NCBI RefSeq assembly: GCF_000517125.1
Contig: NZ_KI912157.1
Coordinates: 92,979 to 156,978, forward strand
Direction: 5' to 3'
From: Arthrobacter sp. MA-N2
GTDB lineage: Bacteria > Actinomycetota > Actinomycetes > Actinomycetales > Micrococcaceae
DNA length: 64,000 nt
Below are positions 3,991 to 16,904 of the stretch, piece by piece; positions within the stretch are counted from its first letter, which is position 1, and each line of letters starts with the position of its first letter. The position numbers and the translations under genes are program-made. A model generated the notes under the pieces. The model worked only from the letters and a program-made list of their open reading frames with translations, was not told the DNA's origin and did no database searches.

Positions 3991-4064
3991 ACTCTTGGCA
4001 ATAGCGTCCCGGTCGCGCCGGCGCCGGGGTGAGGGTGGTTGGGCCCCCGTTAGCAGTCCAGCGT

Positions 4065-4247
4065 CTATGCGATAGCTAATTGGTTTTCTTGCGTCCAGTT
4101 TTCCCAGTAGCGTTTCGGCGTCATGCCGTCCAGGGATCCGTGGGGCCGTTCATGATTGTAGATAGCTTTCCATTCCTCGGCCAAATACTGCGCTTCGGCC
4201 ATGGTGTCCATGATTTCTCCGGAGAGTTGCTCCCTTCTGAACTGGGC
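4065..4247 (-). pseudogene. IS3-type transposase OrfB, C-terminal fragment
   Basis: On the minus strand the frame runs through AQFRREQLSGEIMDTMAEAQ and YNHERPHGSLDGMTPKRYW to a TAG at 4065. The YNHERPHGSL and MTPKRYW motifs are the standard end of IS3-family integrase-type transposases. It has no start of its own: it is the piece of OrfB cut off from the rest at 15802 by insertion of the IS21-type element. The catalytic glutamate (in WQNGFIESFN) lies in the other fragment. Confidence 0.9.
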
Positions 4248-4303
4248 TGAATATGGCAGTTTGATTCAGGACCGGTGTGACGGCTTGAACCAGGACCACC
4301 CAC
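4248..4303 (+). repeat. IS21-type left terminal inverted repeat
   Basis: Begins TGAATATGGCAGTTTG and ends CAGGACCACCCAC. By eye about 46 of 56 positions match the reverse complement of 15746-15801. A partial third copy of the inner part (TGACGGTTTGAGTCAGGACC) follows at 4321, as expected for the multiple transposase-binding repeats at IS21 ends. Confidence 0.88.
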
Positions 4304-4320
4304 GACTCGCCGGTTGCTTG

Positions 4321-4346
4321 TGACGGTTTGAGTCAGGACCACCCCC
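4321..4346 (+). repeat. Internal copy of the IS21 terminal repeat (transposase-binding type)
   Basis: TGACGGTTTGAGTCAGGACC followed by ACCCCC repeats the inner half of the left terminal repeat (TGACGGCTTGAACCAGGACC at about 4277). Arrays of subterminal repeats are the usual IstA binding sites in IS21-family elements. It lies just before istA and could also influence its transcription. Confidence 0.7.
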
Positions 4347-4389
4347 AGTGTTGTTTTCATCTGATGAAAGCGAGCATTGGGAGGTCCGG

Positions 4390-5130
4390 ATGAGGGTGCG
4401 CATGGAGCTGTTTGCCAGGATCCGCAGAGACGCCCGCGTTGAGGGCCTGTCGATCCGTGGGCTGGCAAAGCGGTATCAGATCGGCAGGGACACAGTCCGG
4501 CAGGCATTGTCGGATCCTCTCCCGCCGGCGCGGAAGACGCCAATGAGGTCATCGCCCCGGCTGGACCCTTTCAAGACGGCGATCGATGCCATGCTGACCG
4601 AGGACACCACCGCGCCGAGGAAGCAGCGCCACACCGCCAAGAGGATCCTGGCCCGGCTCATTGAGGAGCGCGGAGCGGCCGATCTGTCGTATTCGACGGT
4701 GCGAGACTACGTGCGGGTCCGCCGGGCGCAGATAGATGTGGAGGCCGGCCGCCGGGTGGAAGTGTTTGTCCCGCAGGAACACGCCCCGGGCGCGGAGGCC
4801 GAGGTGGACTTCGGGGAACTCTGGGTCGTCCTGAATGGGGTCAAGACCAAGTGCCACATGTTCGTCTTTCGGCTCTCCCACTCGGGCAAGGCCATCCACC
4901 GGATCTACCCGACGCAGGCCCAGGAAGCCTTTCTGGAAGGCCACATCGAAGCGTTCCAGGTCTTGGGCGGTATCCCGACCAAGCACATCCGGTATGACAA
5001 TCTCACCAGCGCGGTCACCGCGGTGGTGTTCGGGCAGGGCCGGCAGCGCCTGGAAAATGACCGGTGGGTTCTGTTCCGCTCCCACTACCCGTTTACTGAA
5101 CTACGACACGCGTTTGTGCTGGTTGACGCC
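4390..5130 (+). pseudogene. istA: IS21 transposase IstA, N-terminal part (interrupted)
   Basis: The fragment has an N-terminal helix-turn-helix (GLSIRGLAKRYQIGRDTVRQ) and the start of the DDE integrase core. The first catalytic aspartate is in AEVDFGEL and the second in HIRYDNLTSAV. I chose the ATG at 4390 because GGGAGG precedes it by a few bases. Authentic IstA sequence stops at about SHY (5083-5088); the remaining PFTELRHAFVLVDA is read from element A and ends at TAG. The missing catalytic glutamate lies downstream of element A (8867 on), so this fragment cannot be an active transposase. It might still bind the element ends. Confidence 0.9.
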
Positions 5131-5162
5131 TAGATTCTGGTTCGCTGACTACGGTCTGTCTT

Positions 5163-6401
5163 GTGATGAGCGAAGACGTGGACAGAGACCTGGCTCGACT
5201 GTCGGTGCCGCTGGTAGGGGCGGTTGAAAGCACAGGGGACCTGTGTCGGCCGTGTCGGCTAGTTGATGCCGGAGGCGCACCGATCGCGGCGGTATCGGCG
5301 TTCTTCGACGAGTTGCAGGCGGCAGGCAGATCGGCCTCGACGCTGCGTTCCTACGGGATGGACCTGCTGCGGTGGTTCCGCTTCCTCTGGGAGATCGACG
5401 TCGCCTGGAACCGGGCGAGCCGGGTCGAGGCCCGTGACTTCGCCCGCTGGATGCTGGTATCGGGCAAGCCGCAACGATCGCATTGGCGCAGGCCCGGCGA
5501 ATCAGTGAAGCGCCGGGCGAAGCCGGTCCCGTATTCGCCCGCGGTCCGGGCACACACCGAGACGGTGCTGCGCCGGTTCTACGACTTCCACCTCGACACA
5601 GGAACCGGGCCACTGCTCAACCCGTTCCCGTTGGAGCGTCCACGGCGCGGGGGTCGTGCGCATGCCCATCACAATCCAATGGAGCCCCACCGAAACGAAC
5701 GCAGCGGCCTGTTCCGGCCGCGACTTGCCTCGAGGATCCCGCGCAGCATTCCTGACGCGAAATTCAACGAGATCTTTGCGCGCCTGCCCTCACATCGGGA
5801 TCGTGCGCTGGTTGCCTTCTATGTCTCCACCGGGGCCAGGGCCTCGGAGCTGTTGTCGGCCCTGCGCAGCGGTGTTGATCCGGGCCGGCAGGTGATCACA
5901 GTGATCCGGAAAGGCTCGGGGGCGAGTCAGGAGCTGCCGGCTTCAACTGACGCGTTCGTTTGGCTCCGGCTCTATGAGCTCGAGATGCAAGGACGCCTGC
6001 CGAAAGGGCGATCGATGCCGATCTGGTGGACGCTCCGGGAGCCCTATCGTCCCCTGACTTACCATGCGGCGCACCGAATGTTCGAGCGGGCGGTCCGTGC
6101 GGCAGGGAGCGATGCGACGCTCCACGGGCTGCGGCATACGGCGGCCTACCGGATGGCCGAAGACCCGAATCTGCCATTGACCGATGTCCAGTTCGTGCTC
6201 GGGCACGCGCTGCTGACGACCACGCAGATCTACCTCACTCCGCGCAAGCAGGAAGTAATCCGGCGGGTCTTGGAGCACCACGAGCAACAGACCCGCCAAG
6301 CCGAGCGCCGGGCAGTTCCAGCGCCGGCACCGGGCTATGCGCCCGAGACCCTGCAAATCCTGTTCGGAAGGTCACATGACTATGACTGTCCTGGTCGTTG
6401 A
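5163..6401 (+). CDS. Tyrosine recombinase, TnpA-like (element A)
   Basis: This 412-residue site-specific recombinase has an N-terminal SAM-like DNA-binding region (STLRSYGMDLLRWFRFLW, about residues 58-76) and a C-terminal catalytic domain. The catalytic residues are all present: Arg226 in STGARASELL, Lys250, His321 and Arg324 in HGLRH, His348 in VLGHALLTT, and the nucleophile Tyr357. The start is GTG at 5163 or the adjacent ATG at 5166; no strong ribosome site distinguishes them. The gene overlaps the TnpB-like gene by 26 bases. By analogy with Tn554 it should cut and join the element ends together with TnpB. It appears intact. Confidence 0.88.
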   Translation: MMSEDVDRDLARLSVPLVGAVESTGDLCRPCRLVDAGGAPIAAVSAFFDELQAAGRSASTLRSYGMDLLRWFRFLWEIDVAWNRASRVEARDFARWMLVSGKPQRSHWRRPGESVKRRAKPVPYSPAVRAHTETVLRRFYDFHLDTGTGPLLNPFPLERPRRGGRAHAHHNPMEPHRNERSGLFRPRLASRIPRSIPDAKFNEIFARLPSHRDRALVAFYVSTGARASELLSALRSGVDPGRQVITVIRKGSGASQELPASTDAFVWLRLYELEMQGRLPKGRSMPIWWTLREPYRPLTYHAAHRMFERAVRAAGSDATLHGLRHTAAYRMAEDPNLPLTDVQFVLGHALLTTTQIYLTPRKQEVIRRVLEHHEQQTRQAERRAVPAPAPGYAPETLQILFGRSHDYDCPGR

Positions 6402-8817
6402 CGATCCCAAAGCTCACCGCAGTACCCAGCAGGTCACCGCACCACTGCTGAGCGAATCACTTCGGGCCCGGCCGACCGCCACGCGCTGGGCTGCAACGAT
6501 GCTGGACCGGGACGCAGCGTTGACCCGCATGAGATCGCGACATGTAGAGGCGAGCGATCACATCAAGATCCCCCGTCAGGGCAGTCAATGGGTTCTGGAC
6601 TGGCTTGACGAGCATCCGGGCGCGACGTGGCAGGAACGATGGTCGGCGACCGGCGTTGAAGCAGCAGGTCGGCCCTGGCGGCAGATTCCCCTGGCCTGGC
6701 TGCGAAACCTAGGCAGGGAGAGCCAATGGAATGACGAACAGTTCCTCCGCTCGCTCCACATCGTATTCGGCGCCGACCTGATCCGCCCCTCACTCTCCTG
6801 GCTCTGCATCGCGGCATTCGGGTCCGGGTCCTTGGCCCGGACTATGGCGGCCATGCGCGACCCTGCCGGATTCGCCGAACTCCGGGCCAAATGCACCGCC
6901 GACCCGAACGTCTCCCAGACTGCACTGACCCGCAACCTATACCGCGCCGCCGCGCTGGTCTCGGCCATGGGCGGGACGATCAGCGACATCACCCCCGGTG
7001 ATGTCGTGGAAGTATTGGACGCCGAAGCCTCCACGCGCGGCACCACTATCGGCTCGACCGGCCTGTTCTACCGGCTGCTGCACGAGATGGGCTCCTTCGG
7101 ACCCGACGCGCCAGCCACGTTGCGCCACTTGCGCGTCGCCGGACAGAAAACCCCCGAACAGATGATCGACCAGTACCAACTCTCTTCCGACCACATCCGC
7201 GGTCTCTTGATCGCTTACCTCAAGGAACGCCAGGCAAGCCTCGACTACAGTAGTCTGACCTCGATCACCTACCACTTGGCGGGGCTGTTCTGGGCCGATC
7301 TGGAACGCCATCACCCGGGCATTGACAGCCTCGACCTCCCCGCCGGCGTCGCCGCGGCCTGGAAGCGGAGACTGCGCACCATCACCCGTTCCGTCACCGA
7401 CTCCGATGGCCGTAAACGTGATGCCGAAGTCGAGCGGGTCAGTTACCGCGAATGCCTGACTCCTGTCCGGGCGCTCTACCTCGACCTGGCTCAGTGGGCC
7501 GTCGAGGACCCGGCCCGCTGGGCGCACTGGGTCGCCCCTTGCCCGATCGGAAGGGAGGAGATCGACCGCCGGAAGGCCAAGCGCCACCTGAAGTCCCGCA
7601 TGGACGCCCGCACGCGAGAACGCCTACCGGTCCTGCCAGTCCTGGTCGAGAGCGTGAACCGGCGCCGGAAGGAAGCCGCCGAACTGTTCGAATCAGCAAC
7701 CCGGACGGCCCCGGGAGCGACGTTCACCGCGGCCGGTCAAAACCTGATGCGAGTGGCTCCATCCCGAGCGGCTGCCGTGAAGATCTGGGCAGTCGAACCC
7801 GACACCGGTCAGCGGCGCGATTTGGGTCGCGAGGAAGAACACGCGTTCTGGGCTTTCGCCGCCGTCGAGACCCTTCGGGCTACCGGGATCCGCGTCGAGG
7901 AACTCACCGAACTGTCCCACCACAGTCTGATCCAATACCGGCTGCCCACCACCGGAGAAATCGTTCCCTTGCTGCAGATCGCGCCGTCAAAGACCGATAC
8001 CGAGCGGCTGCTGGTGGTCAGTCCCGAACTAGCCGACGTCCTCAGCCTGATCATCCGCCGCGTCCAGAACCCGAAGACCGGAGCCATTCCGCTGGTCGAA
8101 GCATACGACGACCACGAGCGAGTCTGGAGACCAGCGGCGCCTCTCCTTTTCCAGCGCCGCGTCGTGGGCGAGCACCGCGCGATGAGCGCGGGACTGATCC
8201 GCAAACTGCTCACCGCAGCCTTGGAACATTCCGGCCTGGTCAATCCCGTCACGGGAGAACCGCTGCACTTCACACCGCACGACTTTAGAAGGCTGTTCAT
8301 CACCGAAGCCGTCCTCAGTGGGCTGCCGCCACACATCGCGCAGATCATTGCCGGCCACCGAGACATCAACGTCACCATGGGCTACAAGGCCGTCTACCCC
8401 ACCGAGGCCATCGACGCCCACCTGGCATTCCTCGCCCGCAGACGGTCGCTACGGCCCAGCGAGGAATACCGCACCCCCACCGAAGAAGAATGGAAAGAGT
8501 TCCTCGGGCACTTCGAGAAACGCAAAGTCGCGGCCGGGACCTGCGGACGAGCGTTCGGAACACCTTGCATCCACGAGCACGCCTGCATCCGCTGCCCGAT
8601 GCTTTGGCCCGACCCTGCCCAGCATGGCCGGCTCCTCGAGATCCGCGACAACCTCCTTGCCCGCATCGCCGAGGCTGAACGGGAAGGATGGATCGGCGAG
8701 ATCGAAGGCCTGCAAGTCAGTCTCGCAGGAGCCGAAGACAAACTCGCCCAGGCTCAACGGCGCCGGACGGGCCAACCGACTGTCTCTCTCGGGTTGCCCT
8801 CCGCCAAGAAAATTTGA
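6376..8817 (+). CDS. Large tyrosine recombinase, TnpB-like (element A)
   Basis: About 813 residues from the ATG at 6376, chosen because GGAAGG lies 4 bases upstream; an upstream in-frame ATG at 6337 overlaps the preceding gene more. The catalytic tyrosine-recombinase domain is in the C-terminal half: Arg506 (TGIRVEEL), Lys539 (SKTDTERL), His635/Arg638 (HDFRR), His661 (GHRDINVT) and Tyr670. After it comes a cysteine/histidine-rich segment (CGRAFGTPCIHEHACIRCP), possibly zinc-binding, and a charged helical tail. The N-terminal half has no clear domain. The size and the Cys tail match Tn554 TnpB better than XerC/D-type enzymes. It ends 49 bases before the right border. Confidence 0.87.
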   Translation: MTMTVLVVDDPKAHRSTQQVTAPLLSESLRARPTATRWAATMLDRDAALTRMRSRHVEASDHIKIPRQGSQWVLDWLDEHPGATWQERWSATGVEAAGRPWRQIPLAWLRNLGRESQWNDEQFLRSLHIVFGADLIRPSLSWLCIAAFGSGSLARTMAAMRDPAGFAELRAKCTADPNVSQTALTRNLYRAAALVSAMGGTISDITPGDVVEVLDAEASTRGTTIGSTGLFYRLLHEMGSFGPDAPATLRHLRVAGQKTPEQMIDQYQLSSDHIRGLLIAYLKERQASLDYSSLTSITYHLAGLFWADLERHHPGIDSLDLPAGVAAAWKRRLRTITRSVTDSDGRKRDAEVERVSYRECLTPVRALYLDLAQWAVEDPARWAHWVAPCPIGREEIDRRKAKRHLKSRMDARTRERLPVLPVLVESVNRRRKEAAELFESATRTAPGATFTAAGQNLMRVAPSRAAAVKIWAVEPDTGQRRDLGREEEHAFWAFAAVETLRATGIRVEELTELSHHSLIQYRLPTTGEIVPLLQIAPSKTDTERLLVVSPELADVLSLIIRRVQNPKTGAIPLVEAYDDHERVWRPAAPLLFQRRVVGEHRAMSAGLIRKLLTAALEHSGLVNPVTGEPLHFTPHDFRRLFITEAVLSGLPPHIAQIIAGHRDINVTMGYKAVYPTEAIDAHLAFLARRRSLRPSEEYRTPTEEEWKEFLGHFEKRKVAAGTCGRAFGTPCIHEHACIRCPMLWPDPAQHGRLLEIRDNLLARIAEAEREGWIGEIEGLQVSLAGAEDKLAQAQRRRTGQPTVSLGLPSAKKI

Positions 8818-8866
8818 TCATCACCGACAGCGCCAGCCATCCCTTTCGAGCGAGTTCAGAGAATTT

Positions 8867-9844
8867 GGTTTCGACCCGTTCTACTGTCAGCCCGGTATCG
8901 CCGGAGCTCATGAGAAGGGCGGGGTCGAGGGCGAGGTGGGGTGGTTCCGCCGCAACCGGCTCTCGCCCATGCCTGTCGCTGAGTCTCTGGATGAGCTCAA
9001 CGACCGCATCCGGGCCTGGGAAGCCCTGGACGATGCCCGGCGGATCAATGACAGGATCCGCACCATCGGCCAGGACCTCGCCGCCGAGCAGCCGCTCCTG
9101 GCGCCGCTGCCGGCAGAGGTCTTCGACCCGGGCCTTGTCCTGACACCGCGGGTGGACCGGTCCTCGCTGATCACCGTGCGGATGGTGAAGTATTCCGTCC
9201 CGGCCCGGTTCATCGGCCGGAAAGTCCGGGTGTCCCTGCGGGCCTCCGAGGTCGTAGTGTTCGACGGCCGCACCGTGGCCGCCAGGCATCCGCGGATCGT
9301 TGCCAAAGGTGGGCAGTCGGTGCAGCTGGATCACTACCTGGAGGTCCTCAAGACCAAGCCCGGTGCGTTGCCCGGTTCCACCGCTCTGGCCCGGGCGCGG
9401 GAGTCCGGGACGTTCACCAGTGCCCATGAGGCGTTCTGGGCGGCGTCCCGCCGGGTCAACGGCGATGCCGACGGCACCCGTGAACTCATCGACGTGCTAC
9501 TGCTCCACCGTTCCATGTACGCCGCCGATGTCCAGGCAGGGATCACCGCGGCGCTGGGGGTGGGGGCTGTCAGTGCCGATGTCGTCGCAGTCGAAGCCCG
9601 CAGACACGCAACGGTTGCTTCCGGGGGTGGGTCCGGTTCGGACCGACATCCCGGTGCTCACGATGAAGTCAATGTGCAACGGGTTGTCAGTCTCACCCAG
9701 CGCCGGCTCATGGACCCGGCCGCCGTCATCGCAGGGCTCCCGCCGGACACACGGCCCCTGCCATCGGTCAGCGCCTACGACGAGCTGCTGGCCAAACGCA
9801 CCGAACACCCCGCAGGAACAGCGTCGAAGGAGAACATCTCATGA
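8867..9844 (+). pseudogene. istA: IS21 transposase IstA, C-terminal part
   Basis: IstA sequence resumes at GFDPFYCQPG and continues through the catalytic glutamate region (GAHEKGGVEGEVGWFRR) to the family's C-terminal DNA-binding part (MVKYSVPARFIGRKVRV, LDHYLEVLKTKPGALPGS). It has no start codon of its own; the open frame upstream runs out of frame through the TnpB gene. The stop overlaps the istB start (ATGA at 9841). Translation of istB may therefore depend on reinitiation. Confidence 0.9.
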
Positions 9845-10425
9845 GTCCCACCGCACCGGCCACCACCATCACGCCGACCCTGCGCCGGCGGCGCGGCCTG
9901 ACCGAACAGGCCGCCGTCGCTGCCGTGGACCAGGCCTGCCGCCGGCTGCGCCTGCCCACGGTCCGGGCAGTCCTGGACGAGGCCCTGAGCGTCGCCGGCA
10001 AAGAACAACTCAGCTATCAGGGGTTCCTGGCCGAGCTACTGCTGGCCGAGTGTGATGACCGGGATCGGCGCTCCTCCATCCGCCGCGTCAAAGCCGCCAA
10101 CTTCCCCCGGGACAAGTGGCTCGGGGATTTCGACTTCGACGCCAACCCGAACATCAACCCCGCCACCATCCACACCCTCGCGACCGGGGACTGGATCCGC
10201 AAAGGTGCACCACTTTGCCTCATCGGGGACTCCGGGACGGGAAAATCCCATCTACTCATCGGCCTTGGCACGGCCGCGGCAGAGAAGGGCTACCGGGTCA
10301 AATACACCCTGGCGACCAGGCTCGTGAACGAACTCGTCGAAGCCGCCGACGAAAAGATGCTGGCCAAAACCATCGCCCGCTACGGCCGCGTCGACCTGCT
10401 CTGCATCGACGACCTCTTGTCTTAA
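9841..10425 (+). pseudogene. istB: IS21 helper ATPase IstB, N-terminal part (interrupted)
   Basis: IstB is the AAA+ regulator that loads IstA-bound ends onto target DNA. This part contains the N-terminal domain (EAALSVAGKEQ-like region: DEALSVAGKEQLSYQGFLAE) and Walker A (GDSGTGKSH). Authentic sequence ends inside Walker B, at LLCIDDL (10414-10416). The next codons (Leu-Ser-stop) come from element B. The rest of the protein lies at 14912-15154. ATP hydrolysis is lost in this fragment. Confidence 0.9.
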
Positions 10426-10441
10426 GAGTCCGTGGCTGAAG
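10417..10441 (+). repeat. Element B left terminal inverted repeat
   Basis: TTGTCTTAAGAGTC then CGTGGCTGAAG. The reverse complement of 14881-14905 is the same except C to T at the fifteenth base and A to T near the inner end. The stop codon of the HEPN-like gene falls inside it. Confidence 0.88.
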
Positions 10442-11507
10442 CAGCCCCCGCGAGGGAGGCGAGGGCATGGTCAAGATCTGCCACTGGATGCTTTGCGTGC
10501 TCGCTAAGCCAGGTCAAGATGGGCACCAGGTAGAAGTTTAAGATCCATGTCCTAATGTCCAAATCGAGCTTCGCAGCGTCGCGGGCGACTCCCGTCGAGG
10601 GGTCCCGCATGAGTCCACCGTGGGCGTAGTCGGATCGCGCGTCGTACCAGTCCATTAGCTGGATCCATTCCAGACACAGCCGCTCGGTCGTATCTGTCCC
10701 GTTCACGAGCTTCTTCAGAATCGTTCGGTGGCCGTTGTCCGCGGGGTCCTGCTTTAGCGCCTTGCAGATGTTTCGGTCGCGTCCGCAGAGAGAGTCATTT
10801 AGCCGACCACAACCGAAGAACGCACCGCGGCGGGCAAAGTGAAATGTCTGCGCACTCGTGGAACGGTCTGTGATCATGGCTTCCAAGGCTTGGACCCAGT
10901 GCATCACGTTCACGCTGTGGTTAAGCCCGATCAGAGCCTGGGACATGAGCTCTATTCCAACCGCAGCCTTGCTTTCAGCGCCCTCCGACGGAGTCAGGGT
11001 GGCTATGGCATCCGATGCAAAGGCGAATGCCTTTGACGATCGAAATTCCTCGAGAATCTTTTCCGGTATCTCCACGCCTAGGACATGACCGTCCCTGTGC
11101 CAGCCCGGGGTGACATGTTCCCGTGTGCGTTGCAGAAACGATGTGTTGGCTGTCGACGTCTGCCCTGGGAGCCCGAACGCTGGATGAGCTGCTCCCATCC
11201 GTCCCTGATAGTGATAGAAGAGGCGCAACAAATGGATGGCATTATCGGTCAAGGAAAAGGCTTCATCGCGTGAGTTCGCGGAAACCTCATAGAACGAACT
11301 CGCTGCGAGGTCCTCTAGAAATCTGCTGTGCCGCTCGTGTTGATGCTTGAATTTGTCGAGGCCAGGATCCAACGGGGGAATCTTGTTCGGCGCGTCGGCG
11401 CCGGGGATGAACGAGCCGGCTCCGATCTTGATCGCTGAGGAAATACGTAGCCCTTCCACGGGGAAGTAGAAAACAACGTCATCTCCGGGCTGTTCGCTTT
11501 CGACCAT
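10422..11507 (-). CDS. HEPN-like protein, cargo of element B (possible defence RNase)
   Basis: This is a 361-residue protein with no certain family name from reading alone. Near its C-terminus is LMDWYDARSDYAHGG, with Arg291 and His296 in the RX4-6H spacing of HEPN ribonucleases. About 80 residues earlier is a helix-rich stretch (HWVQALEAMITDRSTSAQ, then FHFARRGAFFG). That pairing is typical of the Apea-like HEPN domain found in some anti-phage proteins. The N-terminal 200 residues have no motif I recognise. It is the last gene of element B, on the same strand as the recombinase genes and 93 bases beyond TnpB. An RNase role in defence or element maintenance is inference. Confidence 0.72.
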   Translation of the reverse strand: MVESEQPGDDVVFYFPVEGLRISSAIKIGAGSFIPGADAPNKIPPLDPGLDKFKHQHERHSRFLEDLAASSFYEVSANSRDEAFSLTDNAIHLLRLFYHYQGRMGAAHPAFGLPGQTSTANTSFLQRTREHVTPGWHRDGHVLGVEIPEKILEEFRSSKAFAFASDAIATLTPSEGAESKAAVGIELMSQALIGLNHSVNVMHWVQALEAMITDRSTSAQTFHFARRGAFFGCGRLNDSLCGRDRNICKALKQDPADNGHRTILKKLVNGTDTTERLCLEWIQLMDWYDARSDYAHGGLMRDPSTGVARDAAKLDLDIRTWILNFYLVPILTWLSEHAKHPVADLDHALASLAGAASATDS

Positions 11508-11600
11508 GGATGAACCCTAGCGCGCCGGCGGACGGACCCATCCAACGCCGGACCGGGCAGGAACGTCCTGTGGCCGGTGGGTGCGGGGCCGCACGGACTC

Positions 11601-13769
11601 TTATCCGGCTGATTCGAGGGCGTGGGCTACGTCGTCGTCGAGTTCTTGGGCTCGGTGGAGTGCACTGCGGAGCCGTTCGATCTCGAGCTCCCGGGCTGCG
11701 ATCTGTCCTGAGGGTTCTCCTGTTTCGCGTGCTTTGGCCAGGGCGCGGGTGTGGGAGGCGATCATTCGGCGAAAAACGGGTGCGGCGGATTTCTTTGGTT
11801 GCGCGTGGGTGCATCCGAGGCAGACGAGACCGCGGCTGCAGTGCTCGCCTGTCGGTAGCGCGCAAAGGTGTGTGCCCATGTCACGGAGGCTGCAGCTTGC
11901 GCTGAATGCTCTCCATTCCTCGGCGGTTGGTGCCCGGAGCGCGGCGTCGTCGTAGATGTCTGTGTAGAGTCCGCGCATGCTGGCCCGGTAGCCTTCGACG
12001 ATGGTGTCGGGGTAGGTCTTGGCGTAGATCATTACTGTGTCGATGCCGGCATGGCCGAGCAGGGCCGCGATGACGTGCACCGGGGTGTTGTTATTCAGGT
12101 GTTCCGTGGCGAAAGCCCGCCTGCAGTCGTGTGGAGACAGCCGCAGCGGTGCCCCGTCCGCGTGCCGCGCGCCAGCTTCTACTGAGAGTGCTTGGAGCCG
12201 TTGGCGCACTGCCTGGATCGACATCGCGCTTGGATGGCCTGACCCCTGCAGCAGGTATGGAGCGGTGGGCAGTGGAACTTTGGCGCTCTCGTCACGGCGG
12301 TCGCATGGCGGCACTGCATCGGAGCGGTAGAACCCTTTGACGTGGGCGATGATTTCGGCGATCACGCGCCCGAGGCCGTCGCCGATCGGGATGACCCGTG
12401 CCCGGTCGTACTTCGACGGCTTGATGTGGAGCATGTAGTAGACCCGGCCGTCGGGAAGATGGCGTTTGAGCACGTCGAGCGTCGTTAGCTCACACGCTTC
12501 TTCGACCCTCAGACCGCTGGTCAGGAGCAGTTCGAGCAATGCCCAATCCCAGAACCGGTCGCGTTCGGCCCTTAGGGCTTTCCGGTCGCCCGGACCGGTC
12601 TCGAGCTGCTGTGCGGCTTCGTGCCAGCGGCGCAAAGCGAAAGCGCGGATGTTCGGGATCTCGCGGCTCAGGTCCATTACCGTTGCTGTCATTCGTGCCG
12701 TGGTTCGAGCCCGTGCAGCGGCGAACCCACCATCATTAAGATCGTGCGTCGTCAGCGGGACCACTGTAGGCACGTGGCCAGCGAGCTCGGAGCCTGGTTC
12801 GGTGCCCCACGTGCACAAGTCGGTGAAGAACGACCGGACATCCACAAGCCAGTCGTAGGTGGTTGTCCGGTCGGCAGTGCCCTTCGTTGCCGTGCTCCGC
12901 TGGACGGTTCGGGCGGTAGCCAGCGCCCAGGGCACGAATCCGCGTGCGTGCCGCGGAAGGACGTTCCGGCACTCGGTGACCTCGGGATGTTCTTCCCTCA
13001 GGTATTTCCAGAAGTAGGCCAGGGAGCGGATCTTCGTCCGGAGCGTGCTGTAGTTGGCGCTGATGCGCTGTGAGTAGGCATTCATGTAAGCGACGGTGAC
13101 CGCCTGGAATGGCTCCGGAACACCGGCTTGAACCAGTTCCGGGATCGATCGGGGAGGTCGCGCCTTATGGCGCGTTGTGCCGCGTCGCGGCGACCGGTCG
13201 AAGACGCCAAGCAGGCACAACGCCGCATCCAGAATGTCGGTGCCGTTTGCACCTTTGCTGGGTATCCGCAGGTCATCGTCGGTCAGCTCGGACAGGCTGT
13301 CGTAGTCGCACGCGACCATTAGCCGCAGGGCAGTGCGGACCGCCCTTGACCGCCCCTTCGGCGACGCCCATGAGATCTGCCCGCAGGCAACAATCAGGCG
13401 CTCCCTCGCCTGCCGCAGCGGATCCTCCGGTGGCAGGACCCGCACCCAAGTCTCGACTCTCACGGCGGCTGCCATGGCCCAGCTCGGGCGCACGAATCGT
13501 CCCATAAACAGCGCCCTGCCACGTTCGGGCGAGTGTCGGATGAGATCCGGTTCGATGACTTCCCACCATTGCTGCAGCGTCGCACACCCAGCAGGCGGAG
13601 ACTTCAGGAGCCGTTCAGTCGCCTGGCGGGCCTCACGCCGACGCCGCGGATCCCACTCCCACGATTCGATGGCCAGAACCACCGGATCCATCACCACTTT
13701 GGGATCGAACGGCTCATTCCTGAGCTCCCGGGCCGGGCGCATCCCGGTCCCCGAAAGCGCCTCCATCAC
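11601..13769 (-). CDS. Large tyrosine recombinase, TnpB-like (element B)
   Basis: This 722-residue recombinase has its catalytic domain in the C-terminal half. The motifs in order are TSGLRVEEACEL (Arg), IKPSKYDRARVIP (Lys), SPHDCRRAFATEH (His and Arg), LLGHAGIDTVMIY (His and the Tyr nucleophile). A Cys/His-rich segment follows (CALPTGEHCSRGLVCLGC), with a charged coiled C-terminus (RELEIERLRSALHRAQEL). The arrangement is the same as in the element A TnpB-like protein, but the two sequences are clearly divergent. Its ATG overlaps the stop of the TnpA-like gene (ATGA at 13766-13769), so the two are translated together. It appears intact. Confidence 0.87.
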   Translation of the reverse strand: MMEALSGTGMRPARELRNEPFDPKVVMDPVVLAIESWEWDPRRRREARQATERLLKSPPAGCATLQQWWEVIEPDLIRHSPERGRALFMGRFVRPSWAMAAAVRVETWVRVLPPEDPLRQARERLIVACGQISWASPKGRSRAVRTALRLMVACDYDSLSELTDDDLRIPSKGANGTDILDAALCLLGVFDRSPRRGTTRHKARPPRSIPELVQAGVPEPFQAVTVAYMNAYSQRISANYSTLRTKIRSLAYFWKYLREEHPEVTECRNVLPRHARGFVPWALATARTVQRSTATKGTADRTTTYDWLVDVRSFFTDLCTWGTEPGSELAGHVPTVVPLTTHDLNDGGFAAARARTTARMTATVMDLSREIPNIRAFALRRWHEAAQQLETGPGDRKALRAERDRFWDWALLELLLTSGLRVEEACELTTLDVLKRHLPDGRVYYMLHIKPSKYDRARVIPIGDGLGRVIAEIIAHVKGFYRSDAVPPCDRRDESAKVPLPTAPYLLQGSGHPSAMSIQAVRQRLQALSVEAGARHADGAPLRLSPHDCRRAFATEHLNNNTPVHVIAALLGHAGIDTVMIYAKTYPDTIVEGYRASMRGLYTDIYDDAALRAPTAEEWRAFSASCSLRDMGTHLCALPTGEHCSRGLVCLGCTHAQPKKSAAPVFRRMIASHTRALAKARETGEPSGQIAARELEIERLRSALHRAQELDDDVAHALESAG

Positions 13770-14890
13770 CGCTGCCCCTGCAAAGAGTCCAGGGCCGCGA
13801 TGGTCTGCGGCGAATAGGCGAACGCATACCGCTCCCCGGCGTGCACGACGTCGAGGTGAGCCCTGCGCTGCCGGCGCGCGGTCTCGACAAGCGCCTCCAA
13901 CATTGCCCGTTCGTCGACATGTGCATACTCATCGACGGTGGTGGAGATACTACGATGCCCCAAGATCTCCTGGGCCACGTGGGGGCCCGCGACGTCGACC
14001 AGCATCTGCGCAACAGTATGACGGAGCATGTGCGGAGTCGCGTGCACTCCGATCCGTGCAGTGGCCGCCCGGAACGCAGCCTCAAACGCCGGGTAGGCAA
14101 GTGGCCGGCCGGCCGCCTGACGGCGGCCTACCCACAATGCCTGCGTTGAGGTCTTGCCCCGCTCATCGGTGAAGTATTCATCCAGCAGCGGCCACCAGTC
14201 ATCGGTCACGGGCACCCGGTGCTCGTCCCGTGCACCTTTGAGCAGGACTGTGATCGTGCGGCGACGCCGGTCGACATCGCAAAATCGCATTCCAAGAACA
14301 CCGTGTCGGCCGTGCTCTCCGCTCCAGTCGCCGATCCGCTGGCCCGTGCGGAGCAGGAGCGTCACGATTGCCCGATCGCGGGCGCAGGCCTGCGCCACGG
14401 CGATCCTTTCGGCGACCGCCGGGTCGAGGTCCTTCGGAAGCACGCGAGGCTCCCGGCGACGGAATTCCAACCGAGCGCCGCGGGTGGGCAGCTCCCGGCC
14501 CCGCATTCCGTGAAGCGGCCCGGCCTCACCGGTCGGGACTGGGTTCTCTCGTTCGCCCCAGCGCCCGCTTCCGTTCTGTCGATCCCGCTGGATCAGGAAT
14601 CCATAGAACGCCGCAAGGGCGGCGAGCCGGTGGTTCACGGTCCGGGCGGCCCTCGGCTGAGCTGACCGGTCAAGGCCAGCTGCGAACGCACCGATATAGT
14701 CGCCGATCAGCGGCTTGGTCACTTCATCCGGCGACTTCGGACTCAGCCATCGTCGGAAGTGTTTCACCCCAAGACCGTACGACCTGACCGTGTAGCTGCT
14801 GCGGCCCATGACAACCAGCCACTCCACGAACTGCTCAACATCATCCACGCACGGCCTCCGATCGTTGATACCGGAAAGCCCATCAGCCAC
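13766..14890 (-). CDS. Tyrosine recombinase, TnpA-like (element B)
   Basis: This 374-residue recombinase has a SAM-like N-terminal domain (SSYTVRSYGLGVKHFRRWL, residues 31-49) and a complete catalytic set: Arg185 (TGQRIGDW), Lys218, His287/Arg290 (HMLRHT), His312 (ILGHRSISTT) and Tyr322. The GTG at 14890 lies inside the right terminal repeat of element B; a shorter version starting further in cannot be excluded. Having the gene begin in the repeat means the promoter lies outside the element or in its last bases, so expression may depend on the insertion site. It is the likely partner of the TnpB-like protein in end joining. Confidence 0.86.
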   Translation of the reverse strand: MADGLSGINDRRPCVDDVEQFVEWLVVMGRSSYTVRSYGLGVKHFRRWLSPKSPDEVTKPLIGDYIGAFAAGLDRSAQPRAARTVNHRLAALAAFYGFLIQRDRQNGSGRWGERENPVPTGEAGPLHGMRGRELPTRGARLEFRRREPRVLPKDLDPAVAERIAVAQACARDRAIVTLLLRTGQRIGDWSGEHGRHGVLGMRFCDVDRRRRTITVLLKGARDEHRVPVTDDWWPLLDEYFTDERGKTSTQALWVGRRQAAGRPLAYPAFEAAFRAATARIGVHATPHMLRHTVAQMLVDVAGPHVAQEILGHRSISTTVDEYAHVDERAMLEALVETARRQRRAHLDVVHAGERYAFAYSPQTIAALDSLQGQR

Positions 14891-14905
14891 AGACTCTTAA
14901 GACAA
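14881..14905 (-). repeat. Element B right terminal inverted repeat
   Basis: Read inward on the minus strand it begins TTGTCTTAAGAGTC, as at the left end. The GTG start of the TnpA-like gene lies within it at 14890. The hexamer GAACTC separates it from the istB sequence that resumes at 14912. Confidence 0.88.
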
Positions 14906-14911
14906 GAACTC

Positions 14912-15154
14912 GGCTATATGGAACTGGACCGCCGCGGCGCCGAACTCCTCTTCCAGGTCCTCACCGAACGCGAAGAGAAGAACTCCATCGCCATCGCAAG
15001 CAACGAATCATTCTCCGGCTGGACCAAAACCTTCACCGACCCTAGGCTGTGCGCCGCGATCGTGGACAGGCTTACGTTCAATGGAGCCATCATCGAAACC
15101 GGGACAGACTCCTACCGTCTGGCACACACCATCGCCCAACAAACCGGAGGCTAG
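14912..15154 (+). pseudogene. istB: IS21 helper ATPase IstB, C-terminal part
   Basis: IstB sequence resumes at GYMELDRRGAELLFQVLTE, directly after the Walker B residues left at 10416. It goes on through SNESFSGWTKTFTDPRLCAA and VDRLTFNGAIIETGTDSYRL, the standard IstB end. There is no start codon at the junction. Together with 9841-10416 it would give an IstB of about 272 residues, the usual length. Confidence 0.9.
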
Positions 15155-15181
15155 CCGGTGCCCTCGGACTACTGATACGAA

Positions 15182-15637
15182 CTATCCGCGAGTGGGATCC
15201 TCGGTAAGGTGCCGATTCCGCGTCTCGATTAGCTTTTGGAGGTAGCGGGCCAGCACCAGCCTCTCCACCAGACGCCCCATGGGGCCGAACGGTGCCGCGA
15301 ACTCGATCCGATCAATCATCGTGGTGCCCGCCGAATCCTGACTGAACTCATGGACGTGCCGGAACCGCCGAAACGGACCTTTGACCTGCTCATCCACAAA
15401 ATAGTTCGGCGACTCCATCTCGGTGATCCGGCTCGTCATGTGAAGCGGAACGCCGAAGTGCCAAGCTCGCCACGTGACTTCCTCACCCAAAGAGATGAGC
15501 CCGGACGTGACGCCGGCAACCGCCTCTTCACGAGACTGCGCCATCGAGTCCTTGTGGGCGTCGATACTCCGGGCACGGTCAAACAGTTCCGATTGGGGCG
15601 TGCTCGTCCGTGTCGTGCACTCAAAGTAAACGGCCAT
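15182..15637 (-). CDS. SRPBCC-family protein, passenger of the IS21-type element
   Basis: This 151-residue protein has the look of the SRPBCC/START-like ligand-binding fold: an N-terminal ECTTRTSTPQSELFDRARS strand-helix, EEVTWRAWHFGVPLHMTSRI, a GPFRRFRHVHEF turn and a long C-terminal helix (PMGRLVERLVLARYLQKLIE). Such domains bind small hydrophobic molecules; no catalytic role can be read. It lies convergent to istB, 27 bases past its stop and within the right IS21 terminus, so it moves with the element. Plain IS21 elements lack such a gene. No ribosome site of note precedes the ATG. Confidence 0.75.
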   Translation of the reverse strand: MAVYFECTTRTSTPQSELFDRARSIDAHKDSMAQSREEAVAGVTSGLISLGEEVTWRAWHFGVPLHMTSRITEMESPNYFVDEQVKGPFRRFRHVHEFSQDSAGTTMIDRIEFAAPFGPMGRLVERLVLARYLQKLIETRNRHLTEDPTRG

Positions 15638-15745
15638 TGTCAGAGTATGGCAGTTCGTTCATGGTCTGCTTGAACATCGGAAGCCAGCCTGCTGCGCCCG
15701 TCACCTCCCGAGGTGGCAAGGTCCAGCACTCAGGCCAGCTGGGTA

Positions 15746-15801
15746 GTGGGTGGTCCTGGATCAGGCCGTCTCAGTGGTCCTGAAACAAGTTGACATACTC
15801 A
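15746..15801 (-). repeat. IS21-type right terminal inverted repeat
   Basis: Read inward on the minus strand it begins TGAGTATGTCAACTTG and ends CAGGACCACCCAC, aligned without gaps to the left repeat. Its outer TGA provides the premature stop of the IS3 OrfB fragment. The CTGGGC target duplication follows at 15802. Confidence 0.88.
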
Positions 15802-16497
15802 CTGGGCATTGAATGATTCGATGAAGCCGTTCTGCCAGGGCGAGCCGGGGTCGATGAACGCGGTGTCGACGCCGGGGGTGTTGCACCACTCGATCAGTGC
15901 CGCGGCGGTGAACTCCGGCCCGTTGTCACACCTGACGTAAGTCGGGGCTGTGCCGGTTTCGGCGATGATGTCCTCCAGCACCGCGACCACGTCGGCGGCT
16001 TTGAAGGACCGGCGCGGAATGACTGCCAGGGCGGTACGGGTGTATTCGTCGATGACATTGAAGAACCGTATGTGCCGCCCGCAGGTGGTCACATCCGACT
16101 GGAAATCAAAGCTGACCACATGCATCGGATACTCCGCTGTGAGGCGCTTCTGCTCCCCGGCGCCGGGCCCGGTCCGGCGCTTCTTCCGCGCCCCGGCTTT
16201 ACAGACCAGACCTTCGTCGCGCCAGAGCCGGCGCACCCGCTTCCTGTTCAGCGCCACCCCGTCCCATGCAGGCTGTGACAGCAGGTGCCATCTGGCCTTC
16301 CGCCAGCCCCAGGCGGGATGCTTCACGGCCACGGCCCTTAGGTCCGCACGCAGCTGGGCCTCCTCGAAGCCCATGTCAGGTTTCTTCTTCCGGAACGCGG
16401 ACCGGTTCTGGCCCAGAAGCGCGCAGGCGAAGCGTTCGGACGCCCCGAACTTCTCCACTGCCATGTGCACGGCACGGCGGCGGGGTTCGGGGCTCAG
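15799..16497 (-). pseudogene. IS3-type transposase OrfB, N-terminal and catalytic part (truncated)
   Basis: The frame holds the DDE integrase core of an IS3 transposase: MHVVSFDFQSDVTT (first Asp), TYVRCDNGPEF (second Asp) and SPWQNGFIESFNAQ (Glu). It also has the upstream HTH_21 region (AVHMAVEKFGASERFACALL, ALNRKRVRRLWRDEGL). It stops at a TGA formed by the IS21 end; the C-terminus is at 4065-4247. OrfB normally joins OrfA by a -1 frameshift, and the two frames overlap here near 16497, where GGGAAAATTC could serve as the slip site. The start given is the approximate junction. Confidence 0.85.
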
Positions 16498-16772
16498 AAT
16501 TTTCCCTTCGCCACCTCGTTGAGGATGTCGATGGCCAGTTCCTTCTCCGCCAGCAGGCGCTTGAGCCGGGCGTTCTCCTTCTCCAGCTCCTTGGTCCGTC
16601 TGGAGGCCTCGGCGTTCTTCTCGGACCCGTACTGATTCAGCCACCGGTACCAGGTCGCCTCGGTGATCTGGAGCTCCTTGATGACCTCGACCATCGGGCG
16701 TCCGTCGTTGAGCATCTTCTGGCCCTGCCGGACCTTGGCGATGACCTGCTCGGGGGTGTGTCTGCGTGCCAT
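16494..16772 (-). CDS. IS3-type transposase OrfA
   Basis: This 92-residue protein from the ATG at 16772 reads MARRHTPEQVIAKVRQGQKM and contains a helix-turn-helix (MVEVIKELQITEATWYRWLN) and a leucine-zipper-like helix (TKELEKENARLKRLLAEKEL). OrfA binds the element ends. TTCCTCCT-type complement (AGGAGGAAAT) upstream gives a good ribosome site. The gene itself is intact, although its OrfB partner is not. The sequence recalls the IS407 group. Confidence 0.87.
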   Translation of the reverse strand: MARRHTPEQVIAKVRQGQKMLNDGRPMVEVIKELQITEATWYRWLNQYGSEKNAEASRRTKELEKENARLKRLLAEKELAIDILNEVAKGKF

Positions 16773-16904
16773 GATTCGTGAATTTCCTCCTGTGTCCATT
16801 CTCGGACACGAAACTCACACAAACACTGGACTACTACCTGGGGACCCAACCAAGGGGTGCCACGTCTTCATCCAACCCCTATATGAGCGAATTAGGGCGT
16901 ACGG

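Follow-up and report, generated by a model that had tools for sequence, protein, structure and literature searches.

The window analysed here, a stretch of 64,000 nucleotides from Arthrobacter sp. MA-N2, contains mobile elements inserted into one another: an IS3-type element is cut by an IS21-type element, which is itself cut in istA by a transposon that we call element 1 and in istB by another, element 2, each with a pair of tyrosine recombinases. We hold with high confidence that elements 1 and 2 are site-specific actinobacterial transposons related to Tn554, and that each of them targets, in this genome, one short site in the conserved coding sequence of an IS21 gene. The IS21-type element (4248..15801, plus strand) has all the features by which such elements are recognised, namely istA and istB, terminal inverted repeats (4248-4306 and 15743-15801) and a target duplication, CTGGGC, at 4242-4247 and 15802-15807. 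Its ends were confirmed by a relative from Arthrobacter sp. YA7-1 (L080), the alignment of which runs from window position 4248 and reaches up to 15802. The 5' part of istA (4390..5085, plus strand), the start of which was placed by alignment to the same relative, matches NCBIfam transpos_IS21 (1.4e-53) and no Pfam family; it ends in ...RSH, and the next codon, Tyr, lies in a 6-bp core. The 3' part (8870..9844, plus strand) matches transpos_IS21 (2.9e-10) and Pfam Mu-transpos_C_2 (4.1e-17). The 5' part of istB (9841..10410, plus strand; Pfam IstB_IS21, 9.3e-33) reaches the putative Walker B codons, and its 3' part (14912..15154, plus strand; GYMELDRRGAELLFQ...) continues in the same IstB frame as the copy on another contig of this genome, C4.

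Element 1 (5092..8863, plus strand) is a twin tyrosine recombinase transposon of 3,772 bp with the ends TTTACTGAACT and AGTTCAGAGAA, and its borders were taken from the copies on contigs C4 and C1 and from relatives. On its left lies the core TACCCG (5086..5091, plus strand), which is identical in the C4 and C1 copies, and on its right the core TTTGGT (8864..8869, plus strand), which is TATGGA in C4 and TACGGG in C1. The target codons are Tyr-Gly of istA, about 20 codons ahead of the Glu that we take to be the catalytic one of IstA. The two genes are tnpA1 (5163..6401, plus strand), encoding a tyrosine recombinase of 412 aa (Pfam Phage_integrase, 5.3e-18), and tnpB1 (6337..8817, plus strand), encoding one of at most 826 aa with a long N-terminal part (Phage_integrase, 1.1e-11), for which a start at 6376 is likelier.

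Element 2 (10417..14905, minus strand; 4,489 bp) is likewise a transposon with twin tyrosine recombinases; it carries an extra gene and is delimited by an identical copy on C1 and an empty site on C4. Its ends read TTGTCTTAAGAGTC[CT]GTGGCTGA, and the terminal inverted repeats agree in 22 of the first 23 bases. The core is GACCTC (10411..10416, plus strand) on the tnpA-distal side and GAACTC (14906..14911, plus strand) on the tnpA-proximal side, and the target codons are Asp-Glu/Asp of istB, presumably those of the Walker B motif. The recombinases have 374 aa (tnpA2, 13766..14890, minus strand; Phage_integrase, 3.1e-22) and 722 aa (tnpB2, 11601..13769, minus strand; 2.5e-19), and the residues R..HxxR..H..Y are kept in all four recombinases of the two elements. 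The extra gene (10422..11507, minus strand; 361 aa) has no match in Pfam, NCBIfam or PADLOC and no plasmid relative at an E value of 0.001; a decayed relative, up to 45.6% identical, lies in another locus of this genome (L070). A structure model from the single sequence, with a mean pLDDT of 40, was of no use, and an R-x4-H stretch in the protein may be reminiscent of HEPN RNases.

The initial annotation of this DNA had claimed that the IS21-type element is cut by a pair of different paired-recombinase elements, once in istA and once in istB, and that the broken IstA and IstB frames can be rejoined at the junctions, and uninterrupted relatives bear out both claims. The istA/istB part, used as a query, had matches in 188 plasmid records. 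Eight IS21 copies were fetched from these (L079-L086): three (L084-L086) were chosen since istA was unannotated under the match, and the other five stood high in the list of matches. The istA join reads TA[CT]-GGN without interruption in six of the eight (L079-L083 and L086); in L084 it is continuous by alignment, another element sitting further upstream in the same istA, and L085 has an altered core, TTC-TAA-CCG-TTT. The Asp-Glu-Leu-Gly codons of the istB join are uninterrupted in seven of the plasmid copies and in the C4 copy of this genome, and L085 has a 2-bp frameshift there. The halves do not come from different elements, as single related IS21 copies match both about equally well (85.0 and 85.5% for the two halves of istA against one relative, L080). 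The borders had been described as readable, which is right for the IS21-type element; those of the inner elements are refined here to 6-bp cores rather than clean cuts. The frames and the uninterrupted relatives also support the proposed order from IS3 through IS21 to the inner elements, but the nesting does not tell which of elements 1 and 2 came first. In C4 the IS21-type element has element 1 and lacks element 2. The region is thus a record of successive nested insertions, as had been said, but the site-specificity of both inner insertions had been overlooked.

Close IstB copies in the genome of the strain number three, with 95-100% identity (on C3, which is the contig of the window, on C4 and on C1), beside a fragment of 28 residues and distant IstBs. 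Element 1 is present in all three near-complete close IS21 copies, always in one particular codon of istA and always facing the same way. The second tnpA1 copy of the genome is that on C4; of the C1 copy (L010) only the ends of element 1 can be read, the inside being a run of about 100 N. An IS21 on C1 empty for element 1 was considered and rejected, as the readable ends show a filled site. Between the window and C4, the 3,772 bp of element 1 are the same but for one 2-bp indel, and of the 200 flanking bp on either side 164 and 160 match. At this indel (6373-6374) the window copy has two bases more than C4, which shifts the end of tnpA1 and replaces the last residues of TnpA. Between the window and C1 the left flank matches at 166 of 200 positions and the right one at 79 of 200 in an ungapped count, which is low because an indel spoils it; a gapped blastn alignment gives 88.7%. 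Element 2 shows no difference in 4,489 bp between the window and C1, with flanks matching at 187 and 189 of 200 positions, and the C1 copy interrupts the same istB codons but is turned round with respect to istB.

Nested insertion sequences are common, and the elements could have landed in each other by chance, the further copies having come about by duplication of the whole nested unit. The presence of element 1 in all three IS21 copies is what would be expected of duplicates. Random nesting followed by duplication is however disfavoured by the step in identity at the borders, from 99.9-100% in the elements to 80-82% in the flanks (element 1, window and C4) or about 94% (element 2), and by the inverted copy of element 2. 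Relatives of element 1 also occur at the same position of IstA genes that are just 27-28% identical, and we find this explanation hardly credible.

The end sequence of element 2 is found in the genome in exactly three mismatch-free pairs, and four further single matches appear when one or two mismatches are allowed. The third pair, that of L070, bounds a decayed relative in an IstB with 33% identity, which is broken at Asp-Glu-Val, the same codons; here TnpA is 77% identical over the first 52 residues and 31-40% in later pieces, TnpB 31-34% and the extra gene 37-46%. Another decayed relative, on a Rhodococcus plasmid (L034), stops at GACCTC-GTCGATG, in which the same istB codons are read in reverse complement. 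The cores are GACCTC and GAACTC in the window, GAGGTC and GAACTC in C1, and GAGGTC and GAAGTA in L070, all of which can be read, on one strand or the other, as the istB target codons. With tnpA placed first, the far core of the window copy is GAGGTC, which is the tnpA-side core of C1 and also that of the decayed L070.

These copies bear on gene conversion, in which homologous recombination between IS21 copies would have spread one original insertion of each element. Conversion homogenises inserts, and the copies do lie at homologous positions. Against it, the converted tract would need to start and stop exactly at the element borders, the right cores of element 1 differ in all three copies, and the third copy of element 2 interrupts an IstB of only 33% identity. 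Element 2 is moreover inverted in C1, and neither simple inversion between its ends would yield the cores that are observed. Gene conversion is in our opinion a very unlikely cause of this pattern. For site-specific insertion, on the other hand, the sequences show same-codon insertions in diverged IS21 copies, near-identical elements, empty sites in relatives, conserved ends and 6-bp cores.

TnpA1 matched 140 plasmid records by tblastn at 1e-20, 17 of which were fetched; the plasmid relatives belong to ten named genera, all of them actinobacterial, with nine further records unnamed, and 26 of 394 genomes of the class match at 1e-60, the own genome counted. Most close relatives keep the left end (CNG-TTGACTGAACTA, with variants) as well as the right end AGTTCAGAGAA, and some rows, e.g. 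L041, L046, L063 and L064, do not show a left end of that type. The left flank stops at the IstA position of the window (HY) in five relatives, on plasmids of M. avium (L025) and M. intracellulare (L078), in Streptomyces YIM 121038 (L026), in Rhodococcus DK180 (L075) and in L038, and in L078 both flanks can be seen at this position. Their IstA is 64% identical to that of the window in L025 and L078, 27% in L026, 28% in L075 and 28% in L038, in the last case over 87 residues only. In R. jostii RHA1 (L024) the right flank starts at the matching IstA position, read by eye. The flank was assigned to IS21 by NCBIfam in L026 (4.3e-32), by alignment and likeness to L026 in L075 and L038, and by eye in L024; that of L038 has no Pfam match, as is the case for the 5' part of the window's own istA. 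The insertions that were read at the shared IstA position all have the same orientation.

Other members of the family sit elsewhere. The target is istA about 33 codons further on in L030, the C-terminal part of istA in L028 and L072, and istA at HR/IYPTQA in L084; it is a Tn3 transposase in L031 (NCBIfam transpos_Tn3, 3.1e-107) and the tnpB of a sibling family member in L040. An LGFP-repeat gene is hit in L029 (Pfam, 0.0006, under the cut-off) and, by likeness, in L076, and a ParB-type gene in L012 and L059, as judged from the left flank only. In L040 the family member starts inside the tnpB of the other at a CIHEHA motif (384-1490), and the family thus nests in itself. L084 (plasmid pAD51 of Arthrobacter sp. 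D5-1) and L082 (pASPHE301 of P. phenanthrenivorans Sphe3) hold near-identical IS21 elements adjoining merA, of which that in L084 is split by another twin-recombinase element (42% TnpA) and that in L082 is intact. They form a natural pair of filled and empty sites, the two sides of which are 98.1 and 99.9% identical.

A TnpA tree of 46 rows was made by a quick method and has a long outgroup branch; duplicates (L001-L004, L014 and L042) and rows with fewer than about 331 aligned residues were dropped from it. A target could be assigned to 17 of the 46 rows: the shared IstA position in seven, other places in istA in four, the Tn3 transposase and tnpB in one each, and LGFP-repeat and ParB-type genes in two each, so that transposition genes make up 13 of the 17. 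The smallest clade that holds element 1 has six rows, all at the shared IstA position (SH-aLRT 90), and L026, which is at this position too, groups with two unassigned rows outside the clade. On the 17 labelled rows the target changes seven times, which is the minimum, compared with a mean of 9.8 when the labels are shuffled, and none of 200 shuffles was as low. For the shared-position label alone there are two changes against 5.7 in shuffled data (2 of 500 as low), six of its rows forming the one clade. The near-copies L025/L078 and L024/L075 favour such clustering of labels.

The target could also be a short DNA word that is present in many genes, IS21 genes being hit since they are numerous on such plasmids. 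The family members in LGFP-repeat and ParB-type genes and in the Tn3 transposase agree with this, and so do the 29 of 46 targets left unassigned and the element 2 relatives L033 and L066, which show no IstB flank. The six-row clade does not, as all its members are found at one position over IstA genes that are 28-64% identical where measured, nor was a close copy of tnpA1 or of the element 2 ends found in this genome outside IS21. A short-word target is partly compatible with site-specific insertion into IS21 genes, and the odds of the two overlap; we consider it rather unlikely.

Some observations weigh against homing to IS21 genes as we describe it, or against its generality. Two distant TnpA relatives are present in the own genome (L011, 43%, and L012, 37%); the former is at a site without an assigned target, and the latter is in a ParB-type gene. 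Relatives of element 2 are found in the family in two of 395 genomes at 1e-20 (the own and one at 33%) and in the phylum in one of 396 at 1e-35 (the own); genome contigs gave four loci, three with TnpB at 53-66%, and plasmids three records with TnpA2 and three with TnpB2, two of the latter at 34% and outside the fetched set. L033 and L066 (TnpB 47 and 53%) have DNA on both sides, with no IstB match in it by tblastn, and L036 (31% TnpA) has no IstB flank; in L067 and L068 one side is cut off. Among the fetched relatives from outside the genome, these two cut ones included, only L034 shows an IstB flank. In the TnpA tree 29 of 46 rows have no assigned target and four of the 17 assigned ones are not transposition genes, which makes a preference of the whole family unclear, and with so many unassigned a family-wide rate cannot be given. 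The 6 bp that are brought in fit the rule of Tn554-type elements (PMC12486829, PMC10214605) for element 2 if the window copy came from C1, and look mirrored for element 1. Finally, the mechanism that we propose for circle formation and insertion is read from sequence.

According to this mechanism, each element would be excised as a circle that carries a 6-bp core, and would re-enter by strand exchange at the core of the target. The target DNA would be conserved because the protein motif is. The target core of element 2 (GAGCTC-like) is nearly palindromic, which may be why this element is found in both orientations; the target of element 1, TACGGN, is not palindromic. Each insertion would disable its host IS21, at a site that would cost the cell little, and the target would recur wherever such IS21 elements spread. 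The insertions at exact conserved sites, repeated elsewhere, suggest elements that are specialised in invading other mobile elements. A wider view is that the family, lineage by lineage, homes onto conserved codons in transposition genes (several positions of istA, istB, Tn3 tnpA and the tnpB of a sibling), its members being hyperparasites that spread with the elements they invade, silence them and are able to occupy all the close IS21 copies that a genome has; this we put forward only tentatively, as a possibility. If it is general, homing to the DNA that encodes conserved motifs would make some transposons natural brakes on others. Conserved motifs are also the homing sites of group I introns and inteins, and choosing conserved coding positions widens the host range; they splice out, however, whereas the insertions of elements 1 and 2 break the target gene.

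Tn554-related transposons with twin tyrosine recombinases are a known kind of element. Van Houdt et al. (2012) described such transposons from actinobacteria, which pair a long with a short tyrosine recombinase (PMC3414803). In the sections of their paper that deal with the group, the short protein has about 350 aa and the long one 611-828 aa, the genes have the same direction, there is no TnpC, and several identical attB sites are suggested (PMC3414803). The recombinase genes of elements 1 and 2 (412/826 and 374/722 aa) are likewise co-oriented, and they overlap, with the catalytic motif in both proteins. Table 2 of that paper lists the element NC_008270 of plasmid pRHL2 of RHA1 (PMC3414803), which is our L024; it belongs to the clade of element 1 and is 72.5% (TnpA) and 64% (TnpB) identical to it. 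Element 2 is more different, with about 26-30% identity to element 1 and 27% to L024. Section 10 of the same paper, on this group, names no target genes, and the word IS21 does not occur in the text (PMC3414803); the target is identified here. A kind of element that has been known from its genes since 2012 is thereby given an explicit target, in named codons of istA and istB, for which both empty and filled sites occur naturally, and the two provide pairs of recombinase proteins with distinct, mapped target sites. In the open-access literature, as far as titles and the openings of abstracts go, we found no report of elements that home to conserved codons in IS21 genes.

The staphylococcal elements Tn554 and Tn552-II have tnpABC, a preferred att site, a circular form and 7 bp of att from the donor flank (PMC12486829). 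They have a third protein, TnpC, and other genes as targets, and are likened here by description only (PMC12486829). A third gene was not recognised in element 1, and that of element 2 encodes 361 aa without a family match, no direct comparison with TnpC having been made. The SEs are described as having four conserved genes, intA-tfp-intB-srap, and one SE insertion lies in insJ of an IS3 (PMC10214605); element 1 has two genes and element 2 three, and no search with Tfp or Srap was made. The SEs and Tn554 are apparent mechanistic analogues of elements 1 and 2. GInts and RIT elements also have multiple tyrosine recombinases per element, with three recombinase-type proteins each, compared with two in elements 1 and 2, and one GInt group prefers ssb genes (PMC5385486, PMC3414803). 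A paper on Paenarthrobacter mentions nic gene clusters that are bordered on one side by Tn554-related transposases or IS21 or IS256 (PMC10494377).

Plasmid pYA7-1b of Arthrobacter sp. YA7-1 (L085, about 4980-5000) has an istA that is open except that TAA-CCG replaces TAY-GGN at the site of element 1, and an istB with other damage beside the 2-bp frameshift at the codons of element 2. The TAACCG may be a scar left by excision of element 1. When the istA-site pattern was searched for in the 395 genomes of the family, it gave 42 matches in 34 genomes, none of which had a core with CCG, and the scar therefore remains a single case. Upstream sequence was read at 30 of these loci, 29 of them uninterrupted and the remaining one being the own C1 copy; the other 12 matches, the own C4 copy among them, were without an upstream reading. 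The window's own istA site begins with TT and is therefore outside the pattern.

The outermost element was correctly described by the initial annotation as an IS3 cut by the IS21-type element, with the halves of OrfB meeting across CTGGGC, the duplication that flanks IS21. The 3' part, the end of OrfB (4036..4247, minus strand), includes CTGGGC at 4242-4247, and its minus-strand frame AQFRREQLSGEIMDTMAEA is the continuation of the right half. The 5' part (15802..16852, minus strand) comprises OrfA and most of OrfB and includes the second CTGGGC at 15802-15807. Read separately in the minus-strand frame, the right half of OrfB ends in ...NGFIESFNAQ and the left one starts with AQFRREQLSG. The right part matches Pfam rve (3.7e-14), HTH_21 and NCBIfam transpos_IS3 (4.8e-42), the last with 144.5 bits against a cut-off of 160, which it fails to reach because the OrfB gene is cut by IS21; OrfA and OrfB with the rve integrase core are what is expected of an IS3. 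The outer ends at 4036 and 16852 are approximate and, in spite of the readable borders first assigned to them, plausible only, from an inverted repeat, and no flanking duplication was recognised at them. The IS21-type element, finally, carries a passenger gene (15182..15637, minus strand) for a protein of 151 aa that is weakly like polyketide cyclase/lipid transport proteins (Polyketide_cyc2, 1.4e-4, under the Pfam cut-off), and this stretch is also present in the C1 copy, with 95% identity.

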